From: a virus
DNA: 64,000 bases
IMG/VR virus record: IMGVR_UViG_3300035681_000018
Coordinates: 1 to 64,000 of that record
Strand: one strand, 5' to 3'
Of the stretch, positions 28,352-64,000 are shown piece by piece (the first letter of the stretch is position 1; each line of letters opens with the position of its first letter). The position numbers were made by a program, and so were the translations under genes. The notes beneath the pieces are model-generated. The model had not been told where the DNA came from, ran no database searches, and was given only the letters and a program-made list of their open reading frames with translations.

Positions 28352-29023
28352 TTATACATCTTCATTAGGTGTTCTCCAAAAGTACTCATCGTTTTCTCCA
28401 AGACGACCCCACTTGGGGGCGTGTTCTACATCAAAGTAGCGTGTTGATACCTTGAAGTCTGGTGTCTTGAGATTGTGATAACTCAATGATGGATCAACCA
28501 TGCGACACCGATTGTTGGGATAAGCGCCAATTTGACCGTTGTCCAAAGCCACAATGTTATGGGATTTGTGCTCATCAGGAAACTCCGAGAAGTAAAAATC
28601 AGGTTCGTTCCTATGAGGATGATAGTTGTCTACGGTAAATAAATATGTGCCCTTCATTACACCTGCGCTTCGTGTCAGGACTTCAAAACCCATGTTGAAG
28701 ATTAAATTTTTTTCAACGACCGTAAGTCCATGGTCAAACCCATTCCAGAACTGAAGGTCGGTTAGCTCCAGGTCAGGTGTAGGTTCTTTGGGTTTATCTG
28801 GATAGTCTGAGTCCCATGCAAGAAATGCACTGATAGGAAGCTTGTCATATAGTGCTCCATACTCAGTTAAGTACGTTTCAAACTGTAATGCTCGACCAGT
28901 TAAAGATTTACAAGTTACCCAGTAACCTGGAGTGTACTCACCATGTCCATCTCTTAAGTCTCGAAGATATTCTCGGCGAACCCATACTTTAATTGGCGGA
29001 ACGTTGGCAACAAGAGTTGTCAT
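28352..29023 (-). CDS. Probable virion-associated protein, 223 aa
   Basis: Not assigned. Starts MTTLVANVPPIKVWVRREYL, then PGYWVTCKSLTGRALQFETY and GALYDKLPISAFLAWDSDYP. I know similar proteins of this size from cyanopodovirus-like genomes, without function. Beta-rich and soluble. The HNH gene upstream ends 35 bases inside its 5' end. Confidence 0.55.
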   Translation of the reverse strand: MTTLVANVPPIKVWVRREYLRDLRDGHGEYTPGYWVTCKSLTGRALQFETYLTEYGALYDKLPISAFLAWDSDYPDKPKEPTPDLELTDLQFWNGFDHGLTVVEKNLIFNMGFEVLTRSAGVMKGTYLFTVDNYHPHRNEPDFYFSEFPDEHKSHNIVALDNGQIGAYPNNRCRMVDPSLSYHNLKTPDFKVSTRYFDVEHAPKWGRLGENDEYFWRTPNEDV

Positions 29024-29423
29024 GTGTTTTTAAATAAGTAGAGGCAAGAATTAACAACGCAGGGTCGTCATCAAAAAAACCGATCCCAGCGTTGCACTTA
29101 GCACATAATAGCCCTCTGACAACTCCAGTGGCATGGCAATGGTCTACAACTAAAGAATCATTCCTGCCTCTAGCTTTTGGATGCTGCTTGCAACAAGCAC
29201 ATAAACCTTGTTGACGTTTTTCCATTTCTTTATATTGTTGTTTTGATATTCCATATTTTTTTTCAATATCTTTCCAACGTTTTATGTTAATGTAATGTAC
29301 TTTGTTATTTTCTTTATAACAATCTTTGCACCAACAAGTATGTCCATCTGAATATCGTTTGTCTATCCGAAAAAACTGTAAAGATAGCTCTTTGCGGCAA
29401 CGGCTACAAGTTTTAGTACCCAC
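28989..29423 (-). CDS. HNH endonuclease, recombination endonuclease VII type, 144 aa
   Basis: N-terminal zinc ribbon CSRCRKELSLQFFRID...CKDC (residues about 6-40), then the Endo VII core LVVDHCHATGVVRGLLCAKC (about 91-110) with catalytic DHCH. Likely a homing nuclease rather than a resolvase. The apparent start is a GTG that abuts a terminator T run with no Shine-Dalgarno. AT-rich relative to neighbours. Inserted at the start of the gene at 29023, which it overlaps by 35 bases. Confidence 0.8.
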   Translation of the reverse strand: MGTKTCSRCRKELSLQFFRIDKRYSDGHTCWCKDCYKENNKVHYINIKRWKDIEKKYGISKQQYKEMEKRQQGLCACCKQHPKARGRNDSLVVDHCHATGVVRGLLCAKCNAGIGFFDDDPALLILASTYLKTHDNSCCQRSAN

Positions 29424-29957: not shown

Positions 29958-30875
29958 TTAAGGAATATTGATAGGGTACATAAACGATTTATCTGGCATT
30001 TTCATTACAATTGAACGACCAAAAAATGTAAGTGGATGTGCACTAGGTGGAGGAGCGGCGCCATTGGGCAATCCCATTCCTGTTACTGAAGTTAAAGCCG
30101 CTTCTTGAGAGGGATTTAGTGGGGCAATTCCACCAGGAAGTTGTTGCATGGGAACTTTTCTATCTGCAGCACCGTAAACAAAATCATATTTCTCGTCTGC
30201 AGTATAACCTTTTTTGTCGGGACTAAACCAAACATTACCAAAAGAAGTAGCAGGCGAAGTTAAAGGATTATTCTCAGTTGAAGTTGAATAAGGGGTATAG
30301 GGAATATCGCCTGTTCGCATTCTTTTTATTCTGCTCCTTGTTTCAGCTAATGCATTATTTGCAAATTTACGCATTTCAGGCGAATTCATGCCTGCAGCAT
30401 TCGGAGAGTTCAAGATAGTACTCAAAGTTTTTTCTTCTTCTATGGAATCAGTAAGAAGTTTTTGGAAATAATCAGGTTTAGCTATGGCTGTACCAACTTG
30501 TTTTGTCATGGCTTCTGGTATTTCTAGGCCAGTTGCGCCGATGCCGGTGTAATACCTGCCAAAAAGATTTGCGCTAAAAGGTAATGCATTCAATCCTCTT
30601 GATACGGTTTGTTGAACTACAGGAGAAGCAGCTTGCAATGTTCTTTCCACAACAGGCTGTGCCTTTGCAACACCGGTAGCTGCCGCATCAATTAAAGCTG
30701 CTTTTCTGCGATCAAAATCAGATGGCTGTTGGTTTTTGGGAAGACCAGACCTTTGAAATGCTGCACCAATTGGAGTTGCTGCTCCCCCAGGTAATAACCC
30801 ACCAAACACATTTTTATCTACCTGACCGTAACCACGATTTACGCGATTAAGAAATTTTTGAAAGAAATCGCCCAT
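29958..30875 (-). CDS. Probable virion protein, 305 aa
   Basis: Not assigned. Starts MGDFFQKFLNRVNRGYGQVD; Gly/Ala/Pro-rich, low complexity, with NPSQEAALTSVTGMGLPNGA near the end. The style matches the protein at 61525. The ATG at 30875 overlaps the stop of the small basic gene upstream (TGATG); a GTG one codon earlier is also possible. Confidence 0.55.
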   Translation of the reverse strand: MGDFFQKFLNRVNRGYGQVDKNVFGGLLPGGAATPIGAAFQRSGLPKNQQPSDFDRRKAALIDAAATGVAKAQPVVERTLQAASPVVQQTVSRGLNALPFSANLFGRYYTGIGATGLEIPEAMTKQVGTAIAKPDYFQKLLTDSIEEEKTLSTILNSPNAAGMNSPEMRKFANNALAETRSRIKRMRTGDIPYTPYSTSTENNPLTSPATSFGNVWFSPDKKGYTADEKYDFVYGAADRKVPMQQLPGGIAPLNPSQEAALTSVTGMGLPNGAAPPPSAHPLTFFGRSIVMKMPDKSFMYPINIP

Positions 30876-31186
30876 CACTTACTCTCTTTATATTTCTTGG
30901 CAGCAGCTTTAGCCTTACTACGTTTTTCATACTCATTTTTGGTCTGCCACTTTTCTTCGCCCCATTTCTCCAAAGACTTTTGTTTCTCACCCTTGCCACC
31001 TTTATATCCACCACCTGCTTCTTTGTACTCACTTGCGACAAGCTGAGCCTTACGCGCCGAAATAATTAGTTAGCCTTACGGCTACGACCATTCTCCCGGT
31101 TTACCCCCACGGCCTTCCCGCATAACTTTGTTTTTGATGCGCTCACGCAAGTCTGGTTTTGTGTACTTGCTTTTGTCTTCAGCCAT
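30875..31186 (-). CDS. DUF5872-like basic protein split by a 27-nt gap (candidate ribosome bypass)
   Basis: The first half MAEDKSKYTKPDLRERIKNK ...GGKPGEWS (34 codons, from 31186) ends in TAG. After 27 nt the frame resumes as ARKAQLVASEYKEAGGGYKG ... KKYKESK (60 codons, stop 30875). Joined, GGKPGEWSARKAQLV is the expected family core (from memory, DUF5872-like proteins), giving 94 aa. The second half has no ATG. The last codon before the stop and the last codon of the gap are both TCG. Options: ribosome bypassing, or a gene broken by an insertion. The ATG overlaps the end of the HNH gene. Confidence 0.6.
31058..31084 (-). other. 27-nt coding gap with hairpin and matched TCG codons
   Basis: Minus strand, right after codon TCG (31087-31085): TAGCC-GTAA-GGCTA is a perfect 5-bp hairpin with a GNRA-type tetraloop that starts with the stop codon; the gap ends with TCG (31060-31058), after which the family sequence resumes in frame. 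The gap has two further in-frame TAA codons. The layout matches the T4 gene 60 bypass: stop after take-off codon, identical landing codon, 5' stem-loop. Confidence 0.55.
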
Positions 31187-31826
31187 AACTTCCTCGTTCT
31201 TTAAGATAAGTGACTGCGTTTGTCAATACATCTATATTATCACCAAATAAACCTAGGGCTCTATTGCACTCTTTGCACAATAAACCTCTGAACTCATTGG
31301 TTTGATGATTATGGTCCATGGCTAAAGATTGTTTATCCTTAGGAGGCTCTTGGCAAATTGCGCATAAACCTTCCTGTGCCTCAAACACAATGTCGTATTG
31401 TTCTTTTGTTATCTTTCTGCGTTCGTATTTTTTGTGGTTGTGATGCAATAAATCTTGCCCTTGTTTTTTAACTTTTTGATAATGTTCTTTGTTATTATCT
31501 ACCCATTTATTCCAGGTTATTCTGTTACAGGTTTTGCATGAAGAATGAAGATATAATTTCCCATCTTGTTTGCGTCTTCTAAAGCAATCCCAATCTAAAT
31601 AATGAGCACATTTAGAACATTGTTTTTGGCCGTCTGCTCCATACAAAAGCCTAAATCGACGATTGACTAAAGATCTGCAATCCTTGCATACGCTGTCTCT
31701 TTTTATATTGCCGGCTGAGTTGTACCCTTTGTTTGCAAAATTTTCATACGGCTTTCTAGTTCCGCATTCCCGGCAAAGCTTTTGCATTGGTTGGTTTGTG
31801 CTTTTCTTACTATAGCACAAAATCAC
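31179..31826 (-). CDS. HNH endonuclease, Endo VII type, 215 aa
   Basis: Two N-terminal zinc ribbons (CRECGTRKPYENF; CSKCAHYLDWDCF) and the Endo VII core LAMDHNHQTNEFRGLLCKEC with catalytic DHNH near residues 168-187. Probably a homing endonuclease. A GTG at 31826 opens the frame; an ATG at 31787 (MQKLCREC) is the more natural start. AT-rich compared with neighbours. It sits between a broken copy and a replacement copy of the same small-gene 5' half. Confidence 0.8.
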   Translation of the reverse strand: MILCYSKKSTNQPMQKLCRECGTRKPYENFANKGYNSAGNIKRDSVCKDCRSLVNRRFRLLYGADGQKQCSKCAHYLDWDCFRRRKQDGKLYLHSSCKTCNRITWNKWVDNNKEHYQKVKKQGQDLLHHNHKKYERRKITKEQYDIVFEAQEGLCAICQEPPKDKQSLAMDHNHQTNEFRGLLCKECNRALGLFGDNIDVLTNAVTYLKERGSYG

Positions 31827-31919
31827 TGCCCAGGTTTTCCACCTTTAGATCCTGCCATCACGCGATCTTTAATATGTTCGCGTAATTCAGGCTTAGTGTA
31901 TTTATTTTTTTTCTGACAT
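31823..31919 (-). pseudogene. Remnant 5' half of the DUF5872-like gene
   Basis: Reads KYTKPELREHIKDRVMAG then SKGGKPGQ and stops at TGA where the HNH segment begins. It is clearly a paralog of the first half of the gene at 31186 (KYTKPDLRERIKNK...GGKPGEWS). Its own ATG at 31919 is out of frame because of an A8 run (31912-31905): one A fewer would restore MSEKNKYTK. So it is both frameshifted and cut by the HNH insertion. Confidence 0.7.
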
Positions 31920-33545: not shown

Positions 33546-34400
33546 ATGGTTGCTAGACTAAATACGTCAGACCCTTGGATTAAAGCCAAGGACGAGCAAC
33601 CAGAAGTCATGCGGTCGTTGAATAGGACCGCAGCCAGAATTTCTCTTAACGGTCGACGTCACTATACAACGCCGTTACCCACTGGTCCTGCGCCTTCCGT
33701 AACCACTATCATTGGCGAGACCGCTTCCGAAGCAAACAAACGGAAGCTCGAAATGTGGTCGAAAGCAAATCCAGGTGTCAAAGAGCAAGCGGCCGAAAGG
33801 GGTACTGCCATTCACTATGGCATGGAACAATACCTCAAGGGGAATAAAAATCCTGAAATTAAGGAGGAATATGCGGACTTTTGGGCGGGTATGCCGCCAA
33901 TCCTGGATCAATTTGAGGAGATTCTATGGGCCGAATCGCCTGTTTTGGATAAATTTAACTTTACTATTGGTTCTGATGACGTTGCTCGCGTATGGGGCTG
34001 TGACTCAGAAGGTCGTGCTTGGGCTGGTGCTCCTGATATTATTGCTGTTGCCAATAACAAATTGACGCTTGCTGACCTGAAGACCAGTGTTAAACCCTAT
34101 AGCCGCAAGTGGCCAAAAGATTTGGAGAAGGGGTCCCAGGAGTGGAGAGACCTGCTTGGTGGTCACATGAAATTCAAGAAGACTTGTAAACAACTCGCCG
34201 CATACGACATTGCTATTAGCCAGACCCTTGGGCTAAAGGTTCAACAAGCTGCAATACTAGTTTCAACCCCTACTCGCACCCAAATTTTTAAAATTTCACG
34301 TCGTTACCTTGATATGCTACATGAAGACTGGTACAAAATTGTAGATGAGTACTATAAACAAATTGAAAACTGCAACGTTTACGATTCTGATCTTATTTGA
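33546..34400 (+). CDS. PD-(D/E)XK exonuclease (RecB/Cas4-like), 284 aa
   Basis: DNA end-processing nuclease for recombination or replication. Motifs in order: RGTAIHYGMEQYL (about 84-96, GxxxHxxxE), AGAPDIIAV (about 160-168) and LTLADLKTS (about 172-180) giving the PD...(D/E)XK core with DLK, then CKQLAAYDIA (QxxxY, about 216-225). Length fits phage RecB-like exonucleases. Divergent from the minus-strand gene at 33512. Its 3' end is overlapped by the HNH gene. Confidence 0.8.
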   Translation: MVARLNTSDPWIKAKDEQPEVMRSLNRTAARISLNGRRHYTTPLPTGPAPSVTTIIGETASEANKRKLEMWSKANPGVKEQAAERGTAIHYGMEQYLKGNKNPEIKEEYADFWAGMPPILDQFEEILWAESPVLDKFNFTIGSDDVARVWGCDSEGRAWAGAPDIIAVANNKLTLADLKTSVKPYSRKWPKDLEKGSQEWRDLLGGHMKFKKTCKQLAAYDIAISQTLGLKVQQAAILVSTPTRTQIFKISRRYLDMLHEDWYKIVDEYYKQIENCNVYDSDLI

Positions 34401-34827
34401 AAATGGAGAAAAAATTTGTACTCTTTGTAAAGAGCTAAAAACTTTAGCGTGCTTTAGCAAAGCAGGTCGAAAAGATTCGCTTAGAAGTGATTGCAAAAAA
34501 TGTAATGCTAAAAAATATAAACAATGGAAAGAAAAAAACAGGACCGCATATTTACGTGGGGCAACCAATGCAGGATTAAAAATAAAATATGGAATCACTC
34601 TTGAAGAATATGAGCAAATGCTAAAAAATCAAAACCAGTGTTGTAAAATTTGCAAAAGTAAAAAACCTGGAAGAAAAGGTGTTAAAAGATTTGCAGTAGA
34701 TCACTGTCATAAAACCAATAAAGTAAGAGGATTGCTGTGCATGTCCTGTAATACAGCAATAGAATTATTAAATGAAAACCCGGTTCTTTTTGACGCTGCA
34801 AAACAGTATTTAGAAGAGTATTCTTGA
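34345..34827 (+). CDS. HNH endonuclease, Endo VII type, 160 aa or shorter
   Basis: Zinc ribbon CTLCKELKTLACFSKAGRK...CKKC and core FAVDHCHKTNKVRGLLCMSC with DHCH. Homing-type. The frame's first ATG at 34345 lies in the exonuclease gene. A more natural start, ATGGAG at 34403, is one base out of frame across an A6 run (34409-34414): with seven A it would read MEKKICTLC. Very A-rich. Conclusion: start or frame is uncertain, domain is not. Confidence 0.75.
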   Translation: MSTINKLKTATFTILILFENGEKICTLCKELKTLACFSKAGRKDSLRSDCKKCNAKKYKQWKEKNRTAYLRGATNAGLKIKYGITLEEYEQMLKNQNQCCKICKSKKPGRKGVKRFAVDHCHKTNKVRGLLCMSCNTAIELLNENPVLFDAAKQYLEEYS

Positions 34828-34864
34828 AACCCTTATTAAATGAAACCACTTGCGCCTTGGTAGG

Positions 34865-52015: not shown

Positions 52016-52336
52016 ATGGACATGTTTTCCCCTGTTGACGAAACCAATGGGTGCGTAGATGGTGTTTGTCCAGTTCCCTGGGTTACAATTAAACCGCTTG
52101 AAACAACTCCCACAATCAAAGAAGATGTTGTAAATCATCCTTCTCATTACACCGATGGTGGAAGTATCGAATGTATAGAAGCAATCGAAGCACAATTAAC
52201 TACGGAAGAATATCAAGGTTATCTCCGTGGAAACTGCGTAAAATATTTATGGCGATGGCGCAATAAAGGCGGAAAAACAGATATTGATAAATGCCAATGG
52301 TACCTGGAAAGATTGCAGCAAACTTTAGAAGCCTAG
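52016..52336 (+). CDS. DUF3310-like protein, 106 aa
   Basis: C-terminal 70 residues match DUF3310 (gp1.7-like nucleotide kinase family): VVNHPSHYTDGGSIECIEAI (about 38-57), YLRGNCVKYLWRWRNKGGKT (about 71-90) and DIDKCQWYLERLQQ. T7 gp1.7, a relative, is a nucleotide kinase; activity here is inferred. A second copy of the QWYL.RL end is left behind after the HNH gene, so this C-terminus looks newly acquired. Confidence 0.75.
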   Translation: MDMFSPVDETNGCVDGVCPVPWVTIKPLETTPTIKEDVVNHPSHYTDGGSIECIEAIEAQLTTEEYQGYLRGNCVKYLWRWRNKGGKTDIDKCQWYLERLQQTLEA

Positions 52337-52385
52337 ATATTTGCTAGTATGATGTGGTACGATTCAGGAAGTCTTTTACCACTTC

Positions 52386-52901
52386 ATGAAACATAAACCA
52401 CTTCCGTCACAAGAAGAGCTAAAAGAGCGTTTTCTCTATGATGAAGAAAGGGGAAGGTTGTTGTATAAAACACCTCCTTCTCCTTCTTTTAAACACAGAC
52501 AAAATTGTCCGGCGGGTTCCAAGCATCCGGAGGGTGGTTATCAAGTTTGTTATAAATACAAACGATACTTGCACTGCCGTTTAGTTTGGGTTTACGTACA
52601 TGGCTTTGATCCGGGTGCTTTAGAAATTGACCACATTAATGGTAATAGAGCTGATGACCGAATTAAGAATCTACGACTTGCAAACAGAATAGAACAGCAA
52701 TGGAATGTTGGCAAAACAAAAAGAAACACAAGTGGCTACAAAGGAGTTAGTTTTTATAAACGTTTAAATAAATGGCGCGCAGATATAACAGTAGATAAAA
52801 AACGAAAAACATTAGGATATTTTAATACTGCCGAAGAGGCGAGTACGGCTTATCAAAAAGCCGCAGCTATTTTGCATGGCGATTTTAAAAATTTTGGATA
52901 A
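52386..52901 (+). CDS. HNH endonuclease with AP2-like domain, 171 aa
   Basis: Homing-type nuclease: HCRLVWVYVHGFDPGALEID then HINGNRADDRIKNLRLANRI (about 62-101) is the HNH core; NTSGYKGVSFYKRLNKWRAD (about 117-136) and ...KRKTLGYFNTAEEASTAYQK form an AP2-like DNA-binding domain. A-rich. Inserted between the DUF3310 gene and a leftover piece of its original 3' end. Confidence 0.88.
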   Translation: MKHKPLPSQEELKERFLYDEERGRLLYKTPPSPSFKHRQNCPAGSKHPEGGYQVCYKYKRYLHCRLVWVYVHGFDPGALEIDHINGNRADDRIKNLRLANRIEQQWNVGKTKRNTSGYKGVSFYKRLNKWRADITVDKKRKTLGYFNTAEEASTAYQKAAAILHGDFKNFG

Positions 52902-52952
52902 CAGTGGTACCTAGATCGTCTTATTCAATTGGACGAAAGTCAAAAGGGATGA
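52902..52952 (+). pseudogene. Leftover 3' end of a DUF3310 gene
   Basis: Directly after the HNH stop codon the frame QWYLDRLIQLDESQKG ends in TGA. It matches the end of the intact DUF3310 gene (QWYLERLQQTLEA). No start codon. It is the severed original tail, with the functional gene now ending in a different copy. Overlaps the end of the NblA-like gene by 13 bases. Confidence 0.75.
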
Positions 52953-53236
52953 GCGTAGTGTAAATCGTCGTCATCGTCCGACTCGTCCTGCATACAAGCC
53001 AGGGCGAGTTCACTGAGTTCCAACTCACTAGGCAGATCCCACTCAATATCAATTCCTTCAGAACACATGATTTCTTTGACGGCTGCCCATTCCATCATCC
53101 GTTGGAAGTACAGGTTTAACAGTGCAGCCTGCAGTTCTTCCCAACACATCTCCTCTGTTTGCAGCTCAGCTTTACGCATGGCAAACTGAAGTTCTAAAGG
53201 TAATTCAAACTCTTTACGTGTGGATTCGTTCTCCAT
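52940..53236 (-). CDS. nblA: NblA-like phycobilisome degradation protein, 98 aa
   Basis: FELPLELQFAMRKAELQTEE (about 10-29) then WEELQAALLNLYFQRMMEWA (about 32-51) follows the NblA pattern: (S/P)LEQQF..R......M...EA..FL..LY.QMM. NblA binds phycobiliproteins and hands phycobilisomes to Clp protease; cyanophages are known to carry it. The acidic C-terminal extension (about 60-98) is unusual for NblA, which is about 60 aa. A late-type TAGAATAAAT motif lies upstream. Confidence 0.65.
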   Translation of the reverse strand: MENESTRKEFELPLELQFAMRKAELQTEEMCWEELQAALLNLYFQRMMEWAAVKEIMCSEGIDIEWDLPSELELSELALACMQDESDDDDDLHYAHPF

Positions 53237-59141: not shown

Positions 59142-59942
59142 TCAGAAGAAACCGCCTTCAGCGTAGACGTGTGCACCTGGGATGTATCCAGATGCGTTAG
59201 GACCGTCAGGAAACACGCCTACGTACAAACGGTCGCCACGTTCCAGGTAAATGCCACGGTTGCGTAACGGAGCACCAGCAGAGAGCCCTGAGGCGTTACC
59301 AGCGGCTGGGTTGGGTGCCGCAAGTTGTGGCATCACATCAGAACAATCAACTTGTTGTGTGTTGGCGGGAACACGCTTGGCAAGTACAACTTTGTAATCG
59401 CCACTCGCTGGGATGGGCTGCGTGGTACCACGGGTCTGATAGACGACAAACGTTACTTCTGGCTGGTACGGACCAACGGTACCGCCGTAAGAAAAACCAC
59501 TTGCGTCAGGAGTTGCAACACCAGAGTACCGAATGGTTCCCATGGTACCGGTAATTGCCGTCGCACCTGTATAGGTGTAGTACCCAAGACCACTCTCTGC
59601 TGCTGGAGTGTTAAGTCCAGTAGCTGTAATGAAAACAGTCTGGCCACTTACCAAACGAATGCGTGTGCCAGTGGTTGTGGAATCAAGGGTGTAGTCAGGA
59701 TTGCGATAGTAGTCATTACGAACAATAGTGATGGAGTCAACAACGCCACCACTATTATTGTCTTCTTGAAGTGCAGCATCCATATCGACAAGGATCGAAG
59801 GAGCTTGGCCGCCTTGCACAAAGAGTGTGTTAGCGGATGCGCTACCAACGGTCTGAGTCGTGACTCGTACCGAATCAAAAAGAGGCCTGTCAACTAACAG
59901 GGGCTGCTTATTTGTGTTAGTACTGGCTATTTGACTAAACAC
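59142..59942 (-). CDS. Probable virion protein, 266 aa
   Basis: Beta-rich and Gly/Thr/Ala-rich: QTVGSASANTLFVQGGQAPS then GDKL..RGIYLERGDRLYVG near the end. No catalytic motif. The pattern is typical of phage minor tail or decoration proteins. TAGAATAAGAG lies upstream. Confidence 0.55.
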   Translation of the reverse strand: MFSQIASTNTNKQPLLVDRPLFDSVRVTTQTVGSASANTLFVQGGQAPSILVDMDAALQEDNNSGGVVDSITIVRNDYYRNPDYTLDSTTTGTRIRLVSGQTVFITATGLNTPAAESGLGYYTYTGATAITGTMGTIRYSGVATPDASGFSYGGTVGPYQPEVTFVVYQTRGTTQPIPASGDYKVVLAKRVPANTQQVDCSDVMPQLAAPNPAAGNASGLSAGAPLRNRGIYLERGDRLYVGVFPDGPNASGYIPGAHVYAEGGFF

Positions 59943-59980
59943 CCTGTCTATGCTAATTTGACAGGGGCCTCCAAAAACTT

Positions 59981-59991
59981 CTCTTATTCTA
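59981..59991 (-). promoter_or_regulatory. Late-promoter-like motif
   Basis: TAGAATAAGAG on the minus strand, 38 nt before the start at 59942. Confidence 0.4.
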
Positions 59992-60609
59992 ATGGCAGAA
60001 ACAACTTTTCAATGTGCTTGCTGCGGTACTTTTTACCAACGGAGCGGAAATACTGCGGCATGGCACAGAAAGCGCTTAAAAGAACGCGGATATGTTTATT
60101 GCTCAAAAAATTGTGCATCTTTTAAACATGGCGCAAATAAAAATAAAACACCAGAATACGGTTCATGGTGTGCAATGAAAAACCGTTGCAACAATCCAAG
60201 CCATAAAGCTTATGCTAGATACGGTGGACGTGGCATAACTTGTGATATTACGTGGGAAAATTTCAATGTTTTTTTAAAAGATATGGGGGAAAAACCGCAC
60301 CCTAAAATGGAGTTAGAACGAATTGACAACAATAAAAACTACTGTAAAGAAAACTGTCGTTGGGCAACACATAAAGAGCAAACACGTAATCGAGGAGGAA
60401 AACGCGCTACCAGATTATATAGCTTTGAGGGTAAAACAATGTGTATTGCTGATTGGGCAAAAGAAGTGGGTATTTCTCCCCAATCAATGCAAAAACGTCT
60501 TAACAATAACTGGCCGCTTGAAAAAGCGTTCTCAAACGAACGTCATGACGGCAAAGGAAGTAGCCATGTAAAGCCTGCCGCTGTCGAAGCCAAGGGTCTA
60601 CAGCACTAA
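59992..60609 (+). CDS. HNH-type endonuclease, 205 aa
   Basis: Plus-strand nuclease inside a minus-strand block. Zinc ribbon CACCGTFYQRSGNTAAWHRK ...VYCSKNC, then the phage HNH-like core YARYGGRGITCDITWENFNV (about 76-95), GEKPHPKMELERIDNNKNYC and KENCRWATHKEQTRNRGG (about 121-138). The C-terminal WAKEVGISPQSMQKRLNNNW is a DNA-binding HTH. A-rich. Free-standing homing nuclease. Confidence 0.8.
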   Translation: MAETTFQCACCGTFYQRSGNTAAWHRKRLKERGYVYCSKNCASFKHGANKNKTPEYGSWCAMKNRCNNPSHKAYARYGGRGITCDITWENFNVFLKDMGEKPHPKMELERIDNNKNYCKENCRWATHKEQTRNRGGKRATRLYSFEGKTMCIADWAKEVGISPQSMQKRLNNNWPLEKAFSNERHDGKGSSHVKPAAVEAKGLQH

Positions 60610-62693: not shown

Positions 62694-63188
62694 TTACCTC
62701 CAAACCTCATGTAAATAAATGCGTGAACCAACAGCAGTGTCGGCAGGACCAGGTAATGCCTGGATGAATTCAGCACCAGAACGTTCGTAACGATAACGAG
62801 CCTGGAACGGATCTTTGTAGTTTGGAACGTAAAGAATCTGCGCAAGTCGATTGGTTTCGTAGAGATAAATCTCGTCCCAAACCTTCAAAGATTCCCTGGC
62901 ATTGCTGGAGCGAATCGTACGATCCACATCACCAACGATGTTTTCAATACGAGTAGAAGGCGAAGTAGCAACTTCGGTTTTCTTCTCGGCAGTATCGCAA
63001 CGACCAAGTTGAATAATAACTTTGTCGTAGAAGTATGAATCTGGGATAGTATTCATAGCTTCTTCAAGTCGGCTGTAGTCTCCTGCAGGCACAGTAACTG
63101 TAAAGTATCCTAAATGATACCTCACCCTACTCTTATCAAAATCAGATAAATGCACAGCCGTCGTTCCTGTATACTTATTGTAAAACAA
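62694..63188 (-). CDS. Probable virion protein, 164 aa
   Basis: MFYNKYTGTTAVHLSDFDKS then FTVTVPAGDYSRLEEAMNTI; compact alpha/beta with VWDEIYLYETNRLAQILYVP. Possibly a tail-completion or head-tail joining protein by size and position. No named family. Confidence 0.55.
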   Translation of the reverse strand: MFYNKYTGTTAVHLSDFDKSRVRYHLGYFTVTVPAGDYSRLEEAMNTIPDSYFYDKVIIQLGRCDTAEKKTEVATSPSTRIENIVGDVDRTIRSSNARESLKVWDEIYLYETNRLAQILYVPNYKDPFQARYRYERSGAEFIQALPGPADTAVGSRIYLHEVWR

Positions 63189-63196
63189 AAAACCCA

Positions 63197-63691
63197 GTGG
63201 AAACCCGTCAACTCAACCCGCTAACCGGAAAGCCTTTTAAGTTTGGAGACGTGCGTGAAGACGGGTTTATTTTCCGACAGTGGGGTAAACTTCGAGCAGA
63301 CGGCTACAGACAACCCCTTTGGATGTCGCCCGAAGCATTTGCACGTAATCGAAAACAATGCAAAGAACAACAAAGGATAAAAACAAAAGAACTAAGAAAG
63401 TGGTTAAACACAGTAAAATTATTCTATGGATGTGCTGTATGTGGTTACAATAAAATTGCGGAAGGTTTAGATTTTGACCACCTTGAAAATAAAAAATTTA
63501 ATATAGGCGGAGAAGTAAAAACTAGCAAAGAACGCTTACTTAAAGAAATACAAAAATGCCAAATACTTTGCGGCACATGCCATAATATTAAAACGCGCGC
63601 ACCAATTAGTTATTGCACGCTTCGCAAAAAAGATAATGAAGAAAAACCAATTGATATATTTTTGTTTTTAGAACACGAGAAACGCATATGA
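63197..63691 (+). CDS. HNH endonuclease, 164 aa
   Basis: Plus strand within minus-strand genes. CAVCGYNKIAEGLDFDHLEN (about 80-99), then LKEIQKCQILCGTCHNIKTR (about 118-137): both Cys pairs and the catalytic FDH. GTG start at 63197. A-rich. Its stop abuts the stop of the gene on the other strand. Confidence 0.8.
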   Translation: METRQLNPLTGKPFKFGDVREDGFIFRQWGKLRADGYRQPLWMSPEAFARNRKQCKEQQRIKTKELRKWLNTVKLFYGCAVCGYNKIAEGLDFDHLENKKFNIGGEVKTSKERLLKEIQKCQILCGTCHNIKTRAPISYCTLRKKDNEEKPIDIFLFLEHEKRI

Positions 63692-64000
63692 TTACACATT
63701 CATTGGGTTTTGTAGAACTCCTAGGCCTCCCATTGCTTGCATCATTTGTTCCATCGTTGCACGATGATCTGTGCGTTGTGGGGGATTAAGTAATTGTTGC
63801 ATCATTGTTGTTTGCATTTGATCTTGCATATAACGTTTCAAAAAATCTTGTCGTGTTTCTGCAGTATTTGCATCAGTAGTAGCGCCTGGACTAACAACTT
63901 GACCAGTGGGAATTAAGACTTCAGTTTCTGTTTCAGGGCGATCAACGTTACCATGGCCAACGCGGAATACAACCTTACCACTAGGATCTAAAGCCTCAGA
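63692..64000 (-). CDS. C-terminal part of a virion-like gene (cut by window edge)
   Basis: The readable end (102 codons) includes VVFRVGHGNVDRPETETEVL then LIPTGQVVSPGA and a Met/Gln-rich helical tail (YMQDQMQTTMMQQLLNPPQR). The 5' part lies beyond 64000. Composition fits a structural or internal virion protein. Stop TAA at 63692-63694. Confidence 0.55.
   Translation of the reverse strand, partial: SEALDPSGKVVFRVGHGNVDRPETETEVLIPTGQVVSPGATTDANTAETRQDFLKRYMQDQMQTTMMQQLLNPPQRTDHRATMEQMMQAMGGLGVLQNPMNV

Follow-up and report, generated by a model that had tools for sequence, protein, structure and literature searches.

A proposed free-standing HNH homing cassette that probably recodes its target gene, DUF3310, in freshwater cyanophages

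Mobile elements that exchange the end of the gene they enter are known from fungal mitochondria, where mORFs with foreign carboxy-termini have been described at atp6 of Allomyces macrogynus and at atp6, atp9, cox2 and nad3 of Glomus (PMC3630166). As in these mORFs, the phage locus analysed here carries a foreign 3′ end in phase with the resident gene, an endonuclease open reading frame and, downstream, the native 3′ end, and the stranded native end likewise resembles relatives more than the inserted end does (PMC3630166). Whereas the mORFs encode LAGLIDADG or GIY-YIG enzymes and reside in mitochondria, the present case involves HNH-AP2 and three more HNH types in phages, has repeatedly affected one gene and provides many pairs with empty sites. 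The free-standing Seg and Mob endonucleases of T4-type phages resemble it in the position of the nuclease gene at a conserved gene, in co-conversion of the flanks and in presence or absence between relatives (PMC2988022). In the T4 cases the nuclease gene either lies next to its target or divides the target into two pieces that are both expressed (Aeh1 nrdA, T4 39/60); unlike these, the DUF3310 cassette brings a replacement end and strands the old one (PMC2988022). Phage HNH-AP2 (IPA-HNH) genes, according to the available part of their description, also have an N-terminal HNH and a C-terminal AP2 domain and lie at boundaries of genetic exchange (PMC10448857); gene-end replacement was not found in that part of the source. 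The literature covered, from which subscription journals were mostly absent, yielded no report of an end-replacing layout in phages. Because the layout has been described in fungal mitochondria, we regard the DUF3310 cassette as a phage variant of it.

Layout and breakpoints of the DUF3310 locus

The window, that is the whole stretch of 64,000 nucleotides that was analysed, is part of a 70,615-bp virus record. Its DUF3310 locus has the following features:

52016–52158, + strand: resident 5′ part of the DUF3310 gene (~98% DNA identity to the HNH-free phage L004, ~60% beyond)
52159–52336, + strand: imported DUF3310 3′ part of the 'WRW' type, ending QWYLERLQQTLEA (sister phages ~60% identical here; divergence parallels that of the HNH gene)
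52337–52385, + strand: 49-nt cassette spacer (Rfam scan without intron or ribozyme)
52386–52901, + strand: HNH_3-AP2 gene, putative homing endonuclease (Pfam and PHROG matches; dN/dS between carriers)
52902–52952, + strand: stranded native DUF3310 3′ end, QWYLDRLIQLDESQKG and stop, probable right homology arm (corresponds to the DUF3310 3′ end of L008; junction exact)
52940–53236, − strand: convergent neighbour gene, NblA-like, used as fixed right flank for comparisons (Pfam NblA 22.9 bits, cutoff 25)

The DUF3310 end, the HNH-AP2 gene and the start-less second frame described in the initial annotation were thus all found in place. The complete DUF3310 gene of the window occupies 52016–52336 with the C-terminus given above, and it matches PF11753 across the full domain, imported part included (E 2e-17, profile positions 1–60 of 60); several PHROG families annotated as 'nucleotide kinase' match as well. 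In the nuclease gene, Pfam identifies HNH_3 (E 4e-11) and AP2 (E 1.4e-7, slightly below its cutoff), and the PHROG match is to an HNH endonuclease (E 1e-60). The start-less frame of the native end directly abuts the HNH stop codon and shares its reading frame. The family matched by the convergent neighbour, at sub-cutoff level in Pfam, is one of phycobilisome degradation. Two more contigs from other metagenomes carry the same structure, one identical (L003) and one at 99% (L083); an assembly chimera is therefore ruled out.

The QWYL motif common to both copies and the in-frame position of the native tail behind the HNH stop codon are what one would see if a group I intron, an intein or translational bypass linked DUF3310 to its native tail across the HNH gene. 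We regard such a link as hardly credible: the upstream DUF3310 gene is itself complete, with a conserved 3′ end and its own stop codon, and non-coding DNA amounts to 49 nt on the left and 0 on the right. The Rfam scan was negative for introns, and with no ribozyme core in these 49 nt a group I intron was rejected.

Pairwise DNA alignment of the window with L004 and L008 gives 95–100% identity in most bins up to ~52158 and ~60% thereafter, the position of this left breakpoint (~52159) being uncertain by roughly 10–20 nt. The match resumes at 52901/52902, at ACAGTGGTACC. From 52901 on, the window aligns without gaps to the intact DUF3310 genes of L008 and L004, with 92–98% identity over the first 60 nt and 95–100% after them and in the flank, which bears out the proposal that the original gene end is stranded downstream. 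This stranded end is nearer to the relatives than the inserted one, with DNA identities of ~98% versus ~60%. The same annotation had the HNH gene supply a new 3′ end from QWYL onwards. The end is indeed replaced, but the foreign stretch begins ~59 codons ahead of the DUF3310 stop codon and not at QWYL; hence the exchange covered an entire 3′ third of DUF3310 and not the tail alone. The DUF3310 gene of the window is a chimera of a resident 5′ part and a foreign 3′ third. Its native form typically reads WRE...ESLKKAQWYL, the imported form WRW...KCQWYL. As had been anticipated for HNH-free relatives, the DUF3310 genes of L004, L005 and L007–L016 end in ...QWYLDRLIQLDESQKG with a single tail and no second copy. 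The contrary observation, an HNH-free gene ending in QQTLEA, was not made; the nearest ending, QTLEG, belongs to L039, itself an HNH carrier.

Recurrence and co-travel among S-EIV1-like phages

The hosts of these HNH insertions are a family of freshwater cyanophages. Among the matches listed, we compared 175 dereplicated DUF3310-to-neighbour loci of S-EIV1-like phages; because these were selected by similarity, locus counts among the matches listed are not population frequencies. Of the 175 loci among the matches listed, 22 carry an HNH gene at the end of DUF3310, in four types:

Type A: HNH_3-AP2 (window, L083, L084, L085–L087)
Type B: convergent HNH-like gene, no Pfam match (L006, L018, L035, L047, L295, L301, L306, L320)
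Type C: endonuclease VII type, overlaps the DUF3310 stop codon (L026, L027, L033, L279, L296, L297)
Type D: another HNH (L039, L335)

In L335 a gene of another HNH family stands in an identical arrangement: a foreign 3′ end, the HNH gene and then a longer stranded native tail, EKHKGGTESLKKAQWYLSRLIELDG. In the annotated phage collection the single DNA match is S-EIV1, whose DUF3310-like gene ends ALWYLKRLIAKLD and is followed by the same convergent neighbour with no HNH gene; the search of that collection for HNH-AP2 returned only matches below 60% identity. The same slot is filled in L045, L049, L051, L201, L202, L215 and L244 by a convergent gene of ~105 amino acids (MLSTEYR...DDWRQRD), a non-HNH insert with no Pfam match.

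For type A, precise empty sites are seen in three filled-empty pairings, with flank identities of 97.8% (window and L008), 98.7% (L084 and L052/L217) and 97.0% (L085 and L311); where DUF3310 carries other HNH types, the values are 95.3% (L006 and L020) and 99.8% (L279 and L183). These phages thus display the hallmark of a homing gene: close relatives have or lack it at corresponding sites, and the tract around it is replaced. The left breakpoint in aligned pairs lies ~150–180 nt before the DUF3310 stop codon, just past the conserved HYTDGG motif, and the right junction of type A carriers is always at (CA)GTGGTAC, common to three separate contig groups (the window, L084 and L085–L087). The stranded tail in each type A carrier is that of its own lineage; the tail of L084 is identical to that of L052. 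Type B and C carriers have the native end reduced to its last few codons. This reduction, and the shortness of the stranded tail with its missing start codon, would suit the view that the tail is an inert relic of a single illegitimate insertion, with no part in later mobility. We consider that account unlikely, since one HNH family keeps its junction place in different lineages while the tails are lineage-specific, as for a homology arm.

Trees built on the flanking proteins and on the DUF3310 3′ end (59 columns) differ markedly in how often the locus must have changed. HNH state changes number 13 on the flank tree as against 5 on the 3′-end tree, and changes between WRE and WRW 24 as against 1. 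Types A, B, C and D change 2, 1, 1 and 1 times on the 3′-end tree, where shuffling gives means of 5.9, 7.8 and 5.9 for A, B and C; on the flank tree these three change 5, 5 and 3 times. As each HNH type forms roughly one group on the 3′-end tree, the 3′ end and the HNH gene travel together. Across carriers, identity in the 3′ part also correlates more closely with that of the insert (r 0.89) than flank identity does (r 0.56–0.67). Of 12 phylogenetically independent pairs, an average of 9.2 associate the WRW end with an HNH gene and 0 show the reverse (sign test p ~0.004). The mobile cassette is the DUF3310 3′ end plus the HNH gene, and HNH genes have been acquired repeatedly at the DUF3310 end.

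That the element is old is indicated by the type A cassettes of the three main lineages, which share ~70–82% identity with one another; transfer between these lineages was therefore not recent. This age, together with scar-like HNH-free alleles in L043, L328, L334 and L336, could be taken to mean a single ancient insertion that was inherited vertically and lost many times. Such a history is very improbable. The AP2-type carriers do not form one clade on the flank tree (AU test of a single type A clade, p ~1e-68), HNH-free sisters with flanks 97–99% identical have intact, scar-free WRE ends, and each loss would need to restore the WRE allele.

A further alternative assigns the HNH gene no driving role: ordinary homologous recombination would swap DUF3310 3′ alleles, and the HNH gene would hitchhike beside a recombination-prone junction. 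The 24 changes on the flank tree are in line with this, as WRE and WRW ends interchange among HNH-free phages too, and the left breakpoint falls within the most conserved stretch of DUF3310. Among the loci listed, however, 22 of 22 HNH carriers have a non-WRE ('WRW'-like) 3′ end, each HNH type with a flavour of its own, and the same gene end has been taken by several HNH types. Typed HNH-free loci without any insert, among the loci listed, divide into 104 of 143 with WRE and 39 of 143 with WRW. The HNH genes are, moreover, under purifying selection, with dN/dS values of 0.07–0.11 between carriers of different lineages, and so is the imported 3′ end (pn 0.007–0.18 versus ps 0.3–0.98 between lineages). 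On this evidence we judge passive hitchhiking to be quite unlikely. The 39 HNH-free loci with a WRW end indicate that the 3′ end is able to move or persist alone.

A proposed homing cycle

We favour, with a probability of about 0.8, a free-standing HNH homing cassette that restores its target gene and uses the stranded tail as its right homology arm; the cassette probably recodes the gene it enters. It would comprise a DUF3310 3′ end peculiar to the cassette, the spacer and the HNH gene. In a mixed infection with a phage that lacks the HNH gene, the HNH enzyme would cut the WRE-type 3′ region of that phage's DUF3310, and the donor cassette would be copied during repair. Copying would stop on the left in the conserved NHPxHYTxGG stretch of DUF3310 and on the right at GTGGTACC/QWYL, owing to the homology between the stranded tail of the donor and the recipient 3′ end. 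Copying bounded by both homologous stretches would leave the recipient with a complete but chimeric DUF3310 gene. Its own last 16 codons would stay behind the HNH stop codon and, in a later round of transfer, could act as the right homology arm. A carrier would be immune, because the imported end (~60% DNA identity) presumably lacks the cut site. We infer cutting, the cut site, immunity and expression of the cassette genes from sequence comparison. Counting against a homing cassette, the original donor state, an AP2-type cassette at its native locus without a stranded tail, was not found. Synonymous variation in WRE alleles gave only weak signals, not usable as a constrained cut-site footprint.

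Early stop codons followed by a short native QNG remnant occur in the HNH-free WRW alleles of L043, L228, L304, L309, L312, L328, L334 and L336. These alleles may be scars of HNH loss in which the replacement end was kept.

If the cassette works as proposed, a selfish nuclease can enter a phage gene cheaply, with neither intron nor intein, by replacing the part that it destroys, which would account for mosaic phage gene ends and for odd start-less tails behind HNH genes. The homing cycle would then be in view in its empty, filled and, possibly, resistant states, the last after loss. Filled and empty alleles with 97–99% identity, several HNH types and the scar-like alleles make it testable within one phage group.

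The mirror locus at 31 kb

A second locus of the window shows the reverse order, on the − strand: a stranded native 5′ end, an HNH gene, a replacement 5′ end and the resident body of a DUF5872-like gene.

31823–31919, − strand: stranded native 5′ end of the DUF5872-like gene, frameshifted at an A-run
31179–31826, − strand: endonuclease VII-type HNH gene (Pfam Endonuclease_7, E 1.5e-22)
31085–31186, − strand: replacement 5′ end, 34 codons, last codon TCG
31061–31084 (31058–31087 with the TCG codons), − strand: 24-nt insert flanked by TCG codons, opening with the stop codon TAG and containing the hairpin UAGCC-GUAA-GGCUA; candidate element for ribosome bypassing
30875–31060, − strand: resident body of the DUF5872-like gene; starts at the landing TCG and ends with the stop codon (strong purifying selection)

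The initial annotation had paired this locus with DUF3310, and it is a genuine mirror case in which the 5′ end was replaced. The DUF5872-like gene is uninterrupted in the relatives G002 and G004, and the insertion is present in G001. The one-base frameshift of the stranded 5′ end lies in the A-run ATGTCAGAAAAAAAATAAATAC, as expected of a decaying remnant. Repeated use of such a strategy, also suggested there, is upheld both by this mirror case and at DUF3310, where four HNH types occupy the same gene end, each with its own 3′ end. It does not extend to the genome at large: the other HNH genes of the window (29023–29420, 34397–34851, 59922–60581 and 63159–63699) are absent at the same sites in G001–G004, and comparison with these relatives revealed no evident gene-end replacement at any of the four. 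With a gene end replaced in only 2 of the 6 HNH insertions of the genome, this is one strategy among several.

A putative translational bypass across the insert is the best reading of the 31-kb sequence. The insert with its bordering codons reads TCG-TAGCC-GTAA-GGCTA...-TCG. A search pattern that included the take-off TCG matched 36 contigs, 33 of them in the DUF5872-like gene; together with the window this gives 34 loci. All 34 have TCG as landing codon, as against 0 of 21 uninterrupted genes, which use other Ser codons. Directly after the take-off codon stands the hairpin UAGCC-GNRA-GGCUA, with the loops GTAA, GTGA, GCAA and GGGA, all GNRA, and a stem identical to that of T4 gene 60. The gaps measure 21, 24, 26 or 30 nt, and 20 nt in two further contigs; gaps of 20 nt and of 26 nt (the latter in L356) are out of frame, so readthrough of the stop codon is disfavoured in those phages. 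Folding scores of longer stretches around the insert were not unusual, and scanning with relaxed settings revealed no convincing bypass-like hairpin in places other than the DUF5872-like gene.

The T4 gene 60 element likewise has UAG right after the take-off codon, a UAGCC/GGCUA stem with a tetraloop and a matched landing codon (PMC5009743; NC_000866), and, as in T4, a homing endonuclease gene lies upstream of the 31-kb element (PMC5009743). The T4 sequence reads GGA-TAGCC-TTCG-GGCTA...GGA and adjoins a mobA remnant (NC_000866). The predicted 31-kb element differs from it in the take-off codon (TCG versus GGA), the loop (GNRA versus UUCG) and the gap (20–30 versus 50 nt). We lean, by a modest degree, towards the view that these cyanophages host a whole class of gene-repairing homing cassettes, which would supply either a cut-resistant 3′ end, as at DUF3310, or a 5′ end by way of a T4-gene-60-like bypass, as at the DUF5872-like gene. 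If so, the T4 element would have a natural relative in the 31-kb bypass, which dozens of phages would share and which would, like the T4 element, be associated with an HNH gene; the locus may then give comparative data on programmed ribosome bypassing, of which very few phage examples have been described. The insert occurs also in L356, L367, L371, L372, L377, L411, L443 and others, usually with an endonuclease VII-type HNH gene upstream; L356 and L372 retain it without the upstream HNH gene.
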